From: an uncultured Spartobacteria bacterium
GTDB taxonomy: Bacteria > Verrucomicrobiota > Verrucomicrobiia > Chthoniobacterales > Chthoniobacteraceae
Assembly (NCBI GenBank): GCA_903929475.1
Contig: CAIYUV010000071.1
Coordinates: forward strand, 1 to 33,586
Direction of reading: 5' to 3'
DNA: 33,586 bases
Of this stretch, positions 18,152-21,974 are shown piece after piece. Both the position numbers and the translations under genes were made by a program. The notes under the pieces are model-generated. The model did no database searches and had not been told where the DNA came from. It saw nothing but the letters and a program-made list of their open reading frames with translations. Every line of letters begins with the position of its first letter. Position 1 is the stretch's first letter.

Positions 18152-18676
18152 CTACTCCGCGCCGAACTCCGCAATTCTCTCCTCCAGCTTTTGCACGAGC
18201 CTCTCTGCGGTTTCGCGGGCTCGGCGTTCCTGCATCAGGGCTGCTTCGAGTTCGCGGATGCGCTGCTGGAGATTGATGCGGACGCGGTTTCGCACGTTGA
18301 TCGCGTTGGCTGCGTCGCTGCCCACGTCATCGCTCTCGGCCTCGACGGGAGTGAGAATGTCTTTTACACGATGCTGAGTGGTGTCCTTGCAATTGGTGAT
18401 GATGGATTCCGCCGTGATTTCACCGGCATCGAGGAATTCCTGAATCGCGCCGACTGTTGTGGGGCCGTAAAATTGATCCGGGCCGACTTCGATAAGGTAA
18501 TCCATCGCCAGCTCGGGCACCATCGGCGCTTTCAGCCAGGTGCGCTCATCGGTGGAGACGCGATCCAGAGGCGAAACCTGCGCATCCGCCGCCCACTGGC
18601 GGAGTTGCTGGAATGGGATGGGGCCAAATGTGGAACCGTCGTGCGCCTTGCGAAGATACCATTTGGTGTCGTCCAT
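18152..18676 (-). CDS. GYF_2 domain coiled-coil protein
   Basis: This protein has 174 residues with no signal peptide. Two GYF-like modules occur in tandem. The first, about residues 5-55, has W6-Y-L-R, DGSTFGPIPFQQLRQWA and TWLKAP. The second, about 60-100, has YLIEVGPDQFYGP and IQEFLDAGEI. Residues 128-172 form a charged coiled coil (LQQRIRELEAALMQERRARE). GYF_2 domains bind proline-rich peptides. The upstream neighbour, transcribed first, contains an Ala/Pro-rich linker and ends 5 bp before this start. Interaction between the two products is therefore a reasonable but unproven idea. Confidence 0.8.
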   Translation of the reverse strand: MDDTKWYLRKAHDGSTFGPIPFQQLRQWAADAQVSPLDRVSTDERTWLKAPMVPELAMDYLIEVGPDQFYGPTTVGAIQEFLDAGEITAESIITNCKDTTQHRVKDILTPVEAESDDVGSDAANAINVRNRVRINLQQRIRELEAALMQERRARETAERLVQKLEERIAEFGAE

Positions 18677-18681
18677 AAAAA

Positions 18682-19134
18682 TTACTGTCCTTTCTGTTCG
18701 GCGGGCGGCAGCAGCAATTGCTGGCCGATTTGGAGTTTCTTGGGGTCGGTGATCTTGTTGATTTTCTGCAAATCCACAGCCGTCGTGTTGTGCTGCTTGG
18801 CGATTTTATCGAGCGAATCACCCTTCACCACGATGTGGACGTTGGCGGGTTTTGGAGGAGTGGATGGCGGAGTGAAATCAGCGGCTGCTGGTGCTGGTGC
18901 CGGTGCGGGAGCGGCGACTGGCGCCGGCGCGTTCGCGGTGCGGCCATCGAGCTGCGCGCTGAGCCGTGCGACCTGCGCGGAAAGCATTTCAATTTTCTGC
19001 GCCTGCTGCTCGATGCGCTGGCGAAGCGCCTTGAGTTCGTTTTGCACCGCGTCTTCTGCGCGGGCGCGGGGTGTGAAAATGCCGGACAGCGACAGTGCGC
19101 TGACGGCGACGATTGTGAAAATACGGGGCGTCAT
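18682..19134 (-). CDS. Exported LysM protein with coiled coil
   Basis: This protein has 150 residues. A signal peptide covers residues 1-26 (ARA-ED cleavage), followed by a coiled coil (about 28-64), an Ala/Pro-rich linker (69-97) and a single C-terminal LysM domain (about 99-143, VHIVVKGDSLDKIAKQ...INKITDPKKLQIGQQLLLP). LysM binds GlcNAc in peptidoglycan, so the protein probably sits in the periplasm on the wall. It is the first gene of a two-gene unit with the GYF protein, 5 bp apart. It is divergent from UBact, with 125 bp between the starts. Confidence 0.85.
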   Translation of the reverse strand: MTPRIFTIVAVSALSLSGIFTPRARAEDAVQNELKALRQRIEQQAQKIEMLSAQVARLSAQLDGRTANAPAPVAAPAPAPAPAAADFTPPSTPPKPANVHIVVKGDSLDKIAKQHNTTAVDLQKINKITDPKKLQIGQQLLLPPAEQKGQ

Positions 19135-19259
19135 CGCGTTTTAGATTCCACTTTCACCGCCACATGGCAAGGACGGGTGCATCTGCGGAACAAAAATTTT
19201 CGCAATCGCCTTGCTGTGGACGCCCTTGCTTTCGCCGCGACCGACGCTATTTTTCGCCC

Positions 19260-19436
19260 ATGCCAGACCGGACGCAAAAACCAACCGGACCCGCGCCGTG
19301 GGAGCGCAAAGAAGGCGGCGGCGACGGGCCGAAAGCACCCGACGTGAAAAAGCCGGACACCAAAAGCATCCTCGACCGCATGCGCAAAGTAGATCCCGAT
19401 CAGGCGCGACGCTACCGCCAGCGGACGGGGCAGTGA
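19260..19436 (+). CDS. ubact: UBact, bacterial ubiquitin-like protein
   Basis: This is a 58-residue, highly charged, probably disordered protein starting at ATG 19260. An in-frame ATG at 19164 would add an unrelated 32-residue extension. The N-terminus PDRTQKPTGPAPW, a Gly/Lys-rich middle, and the C-terminal block DTKSILDRMRKVDPDQARRY ending RQRTGQ match the UBact family, described in Nitrospirae, Verrucomicrobia and others as a Pup-like modifier. The terminal Gly-Gln is as in Pup before deamidation to Glu, after which ligation to lysines can occur. prcB follows 21 bp downstream (57 bp if the later start is used), so the pair is surely functionally linked. No Dop, PafA, Mpa or PrcA gene is in the window. 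Confidence 0.92.
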   Translation: MPDRTQKPTGPAPWERKEGGGDGPKAPDVKKPDTKSILDRMRKVDPDQARRYRQRTGQ

Positions 19437-19457
19437 TGGGAAAATGACGGATATCGA

Positions 19458-20315
19458 ATGACGAATTTGCGCTTACTGAACTCAAATCTTTTCATGCAAT
19501 ACTCCGCCGCTCCCACGACGCTCGCCGACACGAGCGCGCCCGATTTTTCCACACTCCTCCAGCGCCACGGTCTCGCCCCGCAACCTCCCGCCAGCGTCGC
19601 GCCGGCATACGACATTCAGCATCCGGCATTCGTCATTCCCACCGCAACCACCATCCTCGCGTTCAAATTTGCCGACGGCGTCCTCATCGCCGGCGACCGA
19701 CGCGCCACCGCTGGCAACACGATCATGTATGATCGCGCGGACAAGGTGCTGGAAATTGACCGCCACTCCATCATGGCCATCGCCGGAGTGCCCGCGACCG
19801 CTTGGGAAATGGCGCGCGTCCTCGAACACAGCTTCCACTTTTTCCGCCGCACGCAGCTCGCCGAGATGAGTCTCGAAGGCAAAGTCCGCGCGCTCTCAAA
19901 ACTCCTGCGCGACAACCTCGGTCTCGTCCTCCAGGGCGTCGGCATGGTCGTTCCCATCTTCGCCACGTTCGACGCCGCCGCAGGCGTGCCACGCGTTTAT
20001 TTCTACGACCCGATGGGCGCACAATTCGAAGCCGCCGATTTCAGCGCCACCGGCAGCGGCAGCCCCGCCGTCCGCGCCGTGCTCCATCACGAAAACACCT
20101 ACGCCAAACGCCCGCTCCGCAAACTCAAAGCCTCCGAGGCCGTGCTCCTCGCCCTCCGCGCGCTCGACACCGCCGCCGAAAGCGACTCCGCCACCGGCGG
20201 CGTGGATCGTCATGCACGTGTTTTTCCCATCGTGAAAATGATCACCTCCCGCGGAATCGAAACTCTCCCCGACGCGAAACTCGCGCGCCTCTACAAAGGC
20301 AATCTCAGCGCGTGA
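19458..20315 (+). CDS. prcB: 20S proteasome beta subunit (PrcB-like)
   Basis: This protein has 285 residues from ATG 19458; ATG 19494 would give 273. A 63-residue propeptide ends in IPTA, and the mature enzyme starts T64-T65-I-L-A-F-K (codon at 19647). Numbering the mature chain from T64, the catalytic triad T1, D17 (in AGDRRAT) and K33 (in RADKVLEID) is fully conserved, as in mycobacterial PrcB. SATGSGSPAVRAVL and DDSATGG-like ESDSATGGVD are further family marks. It degrades proteins threaded in by an ATPase. The C-terminus is shorter than in actinobacterial PrcB. It ends 6 bp from the convergent coiled-coil gene, so no prcA follows, which is unusual. Confidence 0.93.
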   Translation: MTNLRLLNSNLFMQYSAAPTTLADTSAPDFSTLLQRHGLAPQPPASVAPAYDIQHPAFVIPTATTILAFKFADGVLIAGDRRATAGNTIMYDRADKVLEIDRHSIMAIAGVPATAWEMARVLEHSFHFFRRTQLAEMSLEGKVRALSKLLRDNLGLVLQGVGMVVPIFATFDAAAGVPRVYFYDPMGAQFEAADFSATGSGSPAVRAVLHHENTYAKRPLRKLKASEAVLLALRALDTAAESDSATGGVDRHARVFPIVKMITSRGIETLPDAKLARLYKGNLSA

Positions 20316-20321
20316 TTTTCG

Positions 20322-21974
20322 TCACTTCGTAGATTTCTCCGGCAGGCGGTCGAAGTATTTTTGGATGGCGCTGTGGTAGCCGGGGGGAACTTGCTCGTTG
20401 CGGATGGCTTCGGAGACGCCTTGTTTCACGGCGCGGACGGCTTGCTGGTAGTCACTGGCTTTTTGTCCGGTTTCGCCAACTCCCTCCTCCTTCCATTCCA
20501 TCAGCAATTTGCCCGCGCCGAGCTGCACCTTGTCCTTTTCTTTTTTAAAATCCGACTTCGCGGTGTCGTCTTCTCCCACAGTGCCGCCGTTGCCGGTTCC
20601 GGGATTTTGTCCCGCCTTGCCTTTGCCATTTTTCCCCTTCCCTTGTTGTCCCTCTCCCTCTCCCTCGCCTTCGCCGCCCTCCCCCATTTGTGCGAGGAGA
20701 TCCTTGTATAGTTTTTCGTAGTCCTGCTGTGAATTCGCGCCGGCTTGCTGGGCTTTGTCACCATCGAGTTGTCCCTTGTCATTGAGCTGCTTGGCGGCGG
20801 CGAGATTCTTCAGCGCGTCCTCGAGGTTTTGCGCGTCCTTGAACATTTCGCCGAGGCGTTTCAGTTCGTCCTCGCCGAGTTTCATGGATTCGTTCGCGCC
20901 ATCGAGCGCGTCCTTCGCGAGGTCTTTTAGCTTCGACATGTCCATCTGCTCCAGCGCGCGCTGGAGGGCTTCGTTGACTCCCTTGTCGCCGAGTTGTTCG
21001 CGCATCTGGCTGGCCATCTGGCCGAGTTGCTTTGCGATTTTTTCGAGCTGTTCGCGTTTGTCCGCGCCCTCGGGCTGCTGCGCGATTTTCTGCATTTCCT
21101 GACGGAGTTTTTCCATCGCCTGCTTGAGACCCTCGGAGTCACCTTTCTTCAATTTGTTGATCAGGTCCTTCATCTCCTGTCGCTGCTGCGCGTCGCCGAA
21201 TTGCTGCGCTGCTTTTTCGAGCACTTCCTTCGGCAGACTGGCCGTGGTTTTTTTCCACAGCTCGCTGAAATCCTGCGCCTCCTCATTGAGTTTCTTCGCG
21301 TTGATGTCGCGTTCGCCGGGCTTCACTTCCTTGAGCGTCTTGTCGAGTTTCGCGAGCGCCTGCTCGACTTGCTCGGAAAGCGCGGAGCCTTTTTCCTTCA
21401 GCTCCTCTTTGCGCAATGCGGTGATTTTTTTTGTCTCGATGAGCCGCTCCGTCTGCTTGCTCGTCTCCTGCCGCTTCGCGTCCATTTTAAATGGATCGAG
21501 CTGCGGCAGCCACAGCACGGCGGCGTAGAGCGCGGCGAATGCGAGCAGCACGTCGCGCGCGCCGGGCATCCAGCGCAGGGGCATCAACTTCGCGACGCTG
21601 AGCTGGCCCGCGCGCTCCTCGGCTTGATCGAGCACGATGTCGCGAAATTCGCCGGGCGATTGTTCGATGAGCGTGGCGGTGAGGAAAAGTTCCTTGCTCC
21701 CGGCACGTGCATCCACAGTGCGGGCTACCTGCGCAGGCGCGGGGCGGCGGAAAAATGCGAGCGCCACGGCGAGCGCGAGCGCAGGCACGGCAAGAAGCGT
21801 GAGCGGTGTGAGCCAGTGACTCGGCAGCAGAGCGAGAAGTCGTGAACAAAGCAGTGCGATCAACGCGACACCTGTGAGAGTGAGCACGGCGATGCGAAAG
21901 TTTTTTCCCAGCGCGGCGAGACGCAGACGCGAATCAGCGGAGCGGAGGAGCCGGGCTGTTGCGCTGGTTTTCAC
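20322..21974 (-). CDS. Membrane-anchored long coiled-coil protein of the BatA/MoxR-locus type
   Basis: This protein has 550 residues. Two or three membrane helices lie in the first 165 residues (about 30-50, 56-75, 142-158), with an extracytoplasmic-like segment between. A very charged Lys/Glu/Gln coiled coil follows, to about residue 430. Next come a low-complexity Gly/Glu/Lys linker (EGGEGEGEGEG, KGKNGKGKAG) and a conserved end, QAVRAVKQGVSEAIRNEQVP and GYHSAIQKYFDRLP. Proteins of this architecture in PVC bacteria usually sit beside MoxR ATPase, DUF58 and BatA genes. None of these is in the window unless outside the reading range. Function unknown; the domain call is by architecture only. 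Confidence 0.72.
   Translation of the reverse strand: MKTSATARLLRSADSRLRLAALGKNFRIAVLTLTGVALIALLCSRLLALLPSHWLTPLTLLAVPALALAVALAFFRRPAPAQVARTVDARAGSKELFLTATLIEQSPGEFRDIVLDQAEERAGQLSVAKLMPLRWMPGARDVLLAFAALYAAVLWLPQLDPFKMDAKRQETSKQTERLIETKKITALRKEELKEKGSALSEQVEQALAKLDKTLKEVKPGERDINAKKLNEEAQDFSELWKKTTASLPKEVLEKAAQQFGDAQQRQEMKDLINKLKKGDSEGLKQAMEKLRQEMQKIAQQPEGADKREQLEKIAKQLGQMASQMREQLGDKGVNEALQRALEQMDMSKLKDLAKDALDGANESMKLGEDELKRLGEMFKDAQNLEDALKNLAAAKQLNDKGQLDGDKAQQAGANSQQDYEKLYKDLLAQMGEGGEGEGEGEGQQGKGKNGKGKAGQNPGTGNGGTVGEDDTAKSDFKKEKDKVQLGAGKLLMEWKEEGVGETGQKASDYQQAVRAVKQGVSEAIRNEQVPPGYHSAIQKYFDRLPEKSTK

Follow-up and report, generated by a model that had tools for sequence, protein, structure and literature searches.

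Pup-proteasome genes of Actinobacteria are gathered in one PPS locus (PMC8223512). Outside that phylum, Iyer et al. (2008) recorded Pup and PafA homologues in Verrucomicrobia, with Chthoniobacter flavus among the organisms listed, and described PafA homologues and Pup as neighbours in all lineages seen at that time (PMC2588565). The genus studied here is an exception to this neighbourhood rule.

Two described systems provide the closest comparison. The Pup-proteasome of Mycobacterium tuberculosis resembles the present system, by homology, in its small Gly-Gln tag, its paired ligase and deamidase, its ARC ATPase and its alpha and beta subunits; it differs in the tag itself, which is of the Pup family there and of the UBact family in the source genome. 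Chthoniobacter flavus Ellin428 (L025/G036) encodes UBact, PrcB, PrcA, Dop, PafA and ARC proteins closely similar to those described below, and its PrcB is 69% identical to the source PrcB over the best segment. In C. flavus, however, UBact, prcB, prcA and an amidase gene are contiguous and pafA lies at most 2 kb from UBact, whereas in the source genome the genes beyond the UBact–prcB pair are found on other contigs.

The stretch of DNA analysed here (the window) comprises 33,586 bases and is the entire contig C71 of genome G000, a 4.5-Mb draft in 295 contigs that is 100% complete and 1.79% contaminated. Because the window is a whole contig, the sequence just outside it, where the first-pass annotation had allowed for a prcA-dop-pafA-mpa cluster as a refutation, lies beyond the contig ends, and the remaining components were sought on the other contigs. 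Loci were surveyed with one genome per species over 84,980 species, from which 80 loci with Verrucomicrobiota names were kept, and gene content and adjacency were compared across 57 related genomes.

The UBact–prcB pair

The features of the window that bear on the analysis are as follows.

18152..18676, minus strand: GYF_2-domain gene (PF14237, 7.5e-9); ancestral left flank
18682..19134, minus strand: divergent LysM-domain gene (PF01476, 5.6e-13); ancestral left neighbour of UBact
19260..19436, plus strand: ubact, 58 aa, C-terminal Gly-Gln (PF20513, NF033388, 14-sequence alignment)
19458..20315, plus strand: prcB, 20S proteasome beta subunit, 285 aa with a propeptide of about 63 residues (PF00227, TIGR03690)
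19647..19649, plus strand: codon of the catalytic Thr1 (residue 64), from alignment to mature PrcB chains
19695..19697, plus strand: codon of Asp17 (residue 80, D80), from alignment to solved PrcB
19743..19745, plus strand: codon of Lys33 (residue 96, K96), from alignment to solved PrcB
20316..20321, no strand: 6-bp spacer behind prcB, where relatives have prcA; breakpoint of the ancestral prcB–prcA order
20322..21974, minus strand: convergent gene, 550 aa, new neighbour of prcB; in the same place in the sister species G017 and G019

The upstream gene passed the cut-offs of both UBact profiles, Pfam PF20513 (5.4e-23, 80.9 bits against 27.8) and NCBIfam NF033388 (1.4e-23, 82.9 bits against 35). 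Its product ends in ...YRQRTGQ and thus has one of the two C-terminal ends, Gly-Gln or Gly-Glu, required of such a tag, in agreement with the first-pass annotation, which had described a 58-residue UBact ending in Gly-Gln. A genome search found this to be the only UBact copy in the source genome; two copies (C5 and C227) are present in genome G051. The end of the tag varies between Gly-Glu and Gly-Gln among close relatives, even inside one genus (14-sequence alignment; UBact genes of loci L017, L018, L023 and L051), and deamidation would be unnecessary in those relatives whose UBact ends in Gly-Glu. No sigma-70 promoter was recognised in consensus scans of the DNA preceding UBact and prcA.

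The product of prcB matched PF00227 at 5.3e-28 (98.4 bits; cut-off 22.4) and contains the Thr1, Asp17 and Lys33 by which members of the proteasome family are recognised. TIGR03690 was its best family by far (1.1e-50), with a score of 172.4 bits that lies below the equivalog cut-off of 191.9; judged by its sequence, the protein is a bacterial-type beta subunit, and we do not attach the TIGR03690 equivalog label to it. Mature-chain numbering was derived by alignment to the solved PrcB of Rhodococcus and M. tuberculosis, which sets the start of the mature chain at residue 64. The conservation of T1, D17 and K33, originally proposed from the sequence by itself, was confirmed by this alignment and by 15 relatives in which all three residues are invariant. 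Translation could also begin at a second ATG at 19494. Two prcB genes (C41 and C519) occur in genome G067.

The stop codon of prcB ends at 20315 and the convergent gene extends from 20322, leaving the 6 bp reported in the first reading of the sequence. The 550-residue product of the convergent gene had no Pfam match.

Remaining components of the system

Family searches of the 33,586-base window detected no prcA, dop, pafA or arc gene, as had been reported from the open reading frames. Two explanations had been offered at that stage: either the system was split across the chromosome, or PrcB acted alone or with some other alpha-type partner. The second reading, in which prcA is missing and PrcB would form beta-only rings or use another partner, is in keeping with the absence of prcA from the whole of contig C71. 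The search of the rest of the genome for prcA, dop/pafA and ARC/Mpa that the first-pass annotation had proposed recovered every component, each on a different contig, so that the system is spread over five contigs, C71 and the following four.

C52:16203-16979 (L009:9704-10480): prcA, 258 aa, second proteasome-family protein in the genome
C217:31125-32495: dop, Pup_ligase family, best score with TIGR03688
C122:82423-83730: pafA, Pup_ligase family, best score with TIGR03686
C155:17452-18942: arc/mpa ATPase (TIGR03689, 5.9e-132), with an AAA domain and both proteasomal OB domains

UBact, prcB, prcA, dop, pafA and arc are all full-length, intact open frames in the source genome. Tag, ligase, deamidase, ATPase, alpha subunit and beta subunit are therefore present in one genome, which is the composition that defines a UBact/Pup-proteasome system; the genes do not form a single contiguous Pup-proteasome locus, a feature that is not used to define the system. 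Dop and PafA matched PF03136 at 3.8e-160 and 3.6e-126, respectively.

The identity of the alpha subunit was assessed by sequence and by predicted structure. The C52 protein scored 8.2e-20 with TIGR03691, its 71.2 bits falling below the equivalog cut-off of 139.05, and a profile built from 65 relatives matched only bacterial PrcA in the PDB (best 9e-19). An earlier AlphaFold model from 12 sequences was poor (pLDDT 57) and was redone with 65 sequences, yielding a pTM of 0.78 with a weak stretch at residues 83-115. The best match of this model was M. tuberculosis PrcA (Foldseek 1.3e-9; Z 18.1 over 201 residues, 3.0 A), which ranked above archaeal and eukaryotic alpha subunits. Sequence and predicted fold agree in assigning the protein as a bacterial-type PrcA, the sole copy in the genome. 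A weak match to PF00227 on contig C110 (E 0.69) was rejected as noise. The presence of a single intact prcA of bacterial type argues directly against a PrcB that works alone or with another alpha-type partner.

PrcA, PrcB, Dop, PafA and ARC all scored under their curated NCBIfam equivalog cut-offs, and UBact scored above. ARC proteins of the relatives likewise fell under the cut-off, and these scores probably reflect how far the UBact group lies from models built on actinobacterial proteins.

A further difference from Actinobacteria concerns the C-terminus of the ATPase. Actinobacterial ARC has a GQYL-type C-terminal end, whereas the source ARC ends in the hydrophobic sequence ...SAVV and the order as a whole has hydrophobic ends without GQYL. 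Across the ARC proteins of the order (L010:9309-11000, L146-L157, L161), a variable tail is followed by a conserved hydrophobic pair, VI, VV or II. Since the end differs from the GQYL type, docking of ARC to the alpha ring may differ from that in Actinobacteria in this order.

Gene order across Chthoniobacterales

UBact lies 5' of prcB in 79 of the 80 related loci, demonstrating that the pairing seen in the window is not due to chance. Behind prcB, prcA follows in 76 of 80, and an Amidase_3 gene lies behind prcA in 63 of the 69 loci long enough to tell; on the left of UBact, the divergent LysM gene is present in 68 of 80 loci and the GYF gene in 46. The usual layout in Chthoniobacterales is UBact–prcB–prcA–amidase, which is the ancestral order as well.

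Of the 57 related genomes, 29 contain both prcA and prcB, and the two genes are adjacent in 26 of these; the three with non-adjacent genes are the source genome, G013 and G018, all from one genus. By comparison, arc is on the same contig as dop in 15 of 27 genomes of the order, and pafA is near UBact in few genomes only, such as C. flavus. Dispersed dop, pafA and arc are thus ordinary in this order, and it is the unlinked prcA that stands out. The initial statement that UBact and Pup loci usually keep these genes together is accurate for Actinobacteria and only partly so for this order, in which prcB and prcA are linked and arc, dop and pafA are often dispersed. Comparison of gene order in related Verrucomicrobiota, also proposed at the outset, established prcB–prcA adjacency as the rule and the source genome as an exception to it.

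The two halves of the usual layout can both be recognised in the source genome. The window holds the ancestral left side (GYF, LysM, UBact and prcB) and contig C52 holds the right side, prcA followed by an adjoining amidase gene (298 aa), which places the break between prcB and prcA. The chromosome of the source species was rearranged at this point, with the prcA–amidase link kept. In this draft of 295 contigs, even with C71 and C52 adjoining, prcA and prcB would be separated by at least about 29 kb.

Three other members of the genus show a related arrangement. In G013, G018 and G021, a TauE-like gene and a YqgE-like gene (names read from the sequence) lie behind prcB; in G013 and G018, prcA is present and located elsewhere. 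A search of the G021 genome, which is 86% complete, found UBact and PrcB and no match to prcA, a result that would suit a PrcB functioning without PrcA. The source species groups with G013, G018 and G021 in the PrcB tree (83/94) and does not do so in the PrcA tree; the gene trees are compatible with either a single break of the prcB–prcA link within the genus or several.

The survey yielded several further observations. Loci L022 (4520-6641) and L091 (4793-6237), from Chthoniobacter-type genomes, have 1.4-2.1 kb of extra DNA between prcB and prcA, which is another loosening of the prcB–prcA link. A second prcA in G014 was considered as a duplicate and rejected; because each of the two prcA pieces follows a prcB end, two strains are probably present in one bin. 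UBact, prcB and prcA are present in G023 (96% complete) at about 8000-9960 of L159 (G023:C66:4500-24000), with a PrcA whose nearest relative found shares only about 56% identity with it, and no Pup_ligase protein and no ARC were detected in this genome at the thresholds used. Possible readings are a core that truly lacks a ligase, a gap, and a contig that comes from a contaminant. In G049, pafA occurs as two adjacent pieces (C23:60423-61723), and in G029, prcA contains an in-frame TAG (C27:160345-161097).

Joint loss in two sister species

An assembly error separating prcA from prcB had been named beforehand as an outcome that would overturn the first reading; it would imply a chimeric contig. 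The fragmented state of the draft genome lends such an error some plausibility, as does the fact that prcA does follow prcB in 26/29 genomes. The sister species G017 and G019 decide the matter: these separately assembled genomes match the window at about 90% to the left and to the right of the UBact–prcB site and carry the same flanks, including the convergent gene (92% identity). Since the sister flanks match on both sides, the junction is real and an assembly error is excluded. In addition, both sisters carry the prcA site itself, with its FlgD_ig and amidase genes but with a deletion in place of prcA, and prcA is not behind prcB in three other genomes of the genus. The chance that the separation is an artefact is accordingly negligible.

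Genome searches of G017 (76% complete) and G019 (96% complete) found no UBact, PrcA, Dop, PafA or ARC, and nothing of PrcB except a remnant in G019. In G017, the stretch corresponding to positions 19177-20325 of the window is deleted. In G019 (L158/L181, G019:C62), UBact codon 21 is fused to prcB codon 246, with a premature stop; the fusion spans a short shared GGCGGCG repeat, was formed by deletion, and is followed by an insertion of about 2.9 kb. At the prcA site of both genomes, the FlgD_ig and amidase genes adjoin each other, and the last few prcA codons persist as a deletion scar.

UBact–prcB and prcA, though unlinked, were thus lost together in G017 and G019, from two separate sites, as would be expected of PrcA and PrcB as parts of a single machine. 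The wider distribution is consistent with this: with kinship ignored, also in Fisher's test on these counts, 29 of the 57 genomes have both PrcA and PrcB, one has only the first, one only the second and 26 have neither, so that the two occur together in 29 of the 31 genomes with either. Joint loss and co-occurrence argue for PrcA and PrcB still working together. A further point is that PrcA of the source species does not have an unusual branch length. Taken with the single prcA found on C52, these observations render a beta-only or differently partnered PrcB highly improbable.

The same sister species raise another possibility, namely that the system is present but already decaying in the source species, on the way to the complete loss that the sisters show. 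The whole system is gone from G017 and G019, the closest relatives of the source species, and several links are broken within the genus. Against this stand the six full-length open frames of the source species, the intact catalytic residues of PrcB, and PrcA and PrcB branch lengths that match those of relatives with linked genes. We therefore consider ongoing decay unlikely.

A complete system with unlinked genes

Of the two original options, the split across the chromosome stands, with all the genes recovered on other contigs, and a PrcB acting alone or with a different alpha-type partner does not, because one bacterial-type PrcA is present and is kept or lost with PrcB. The UBact–prcB pair very probably belongs to a complete UBact-proteasome system whose genes are unlinked. 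The system is a known one, of which this is an ordinary member; what is unusual is the arrangement of the genes.

Homology with the Pup pathway (PMC8223512, PMC2588565) predicts that Dop would convert the C-terminal Gln of UBact to Glu and that PafA would attach UBact to lysine residues of its targets. Proteins tagged in this way would be unfolded by the ARC/Mpa ring and degraded by the 20S core, composed of PrcA alpha subunits and PrcB beta subunits with Thr1; PrcA and PrcB are predicted to assemble as an alpha7-beta7-beta7-alpha7 particle. Dop may remove the UBact tag as well. The putative function of the system, by analogy, is the tagging of substrates and their ATP-dependent degradation.

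The arrangements found within the genus invite a tentative proposal, for which we have limited confidence: the genus may be dismantling its UBact-proteasome cluster stepwise, with the arc–dop and prcB–prcA links broken first and the whole system lost afterwards. If so, the unlinking of the alpha and beta genes, with separate control of the two, would be an intermediate before proteasome loss. With the present results, the suspicion of a bacterial beta subunit that works independently of PrcA falls away. They also turn the genus into a comparison set: its UBact-proteasome systems may be linked, unlinked or deleted, the deletion scars can still be read, and the manner in which a dispensable proteolytic system of several genes disappears can be tested on them. 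For Chthoniobacterales more broadly, gene neighbourhood is a poor guide to the completeness of the UBact-proteasome system.
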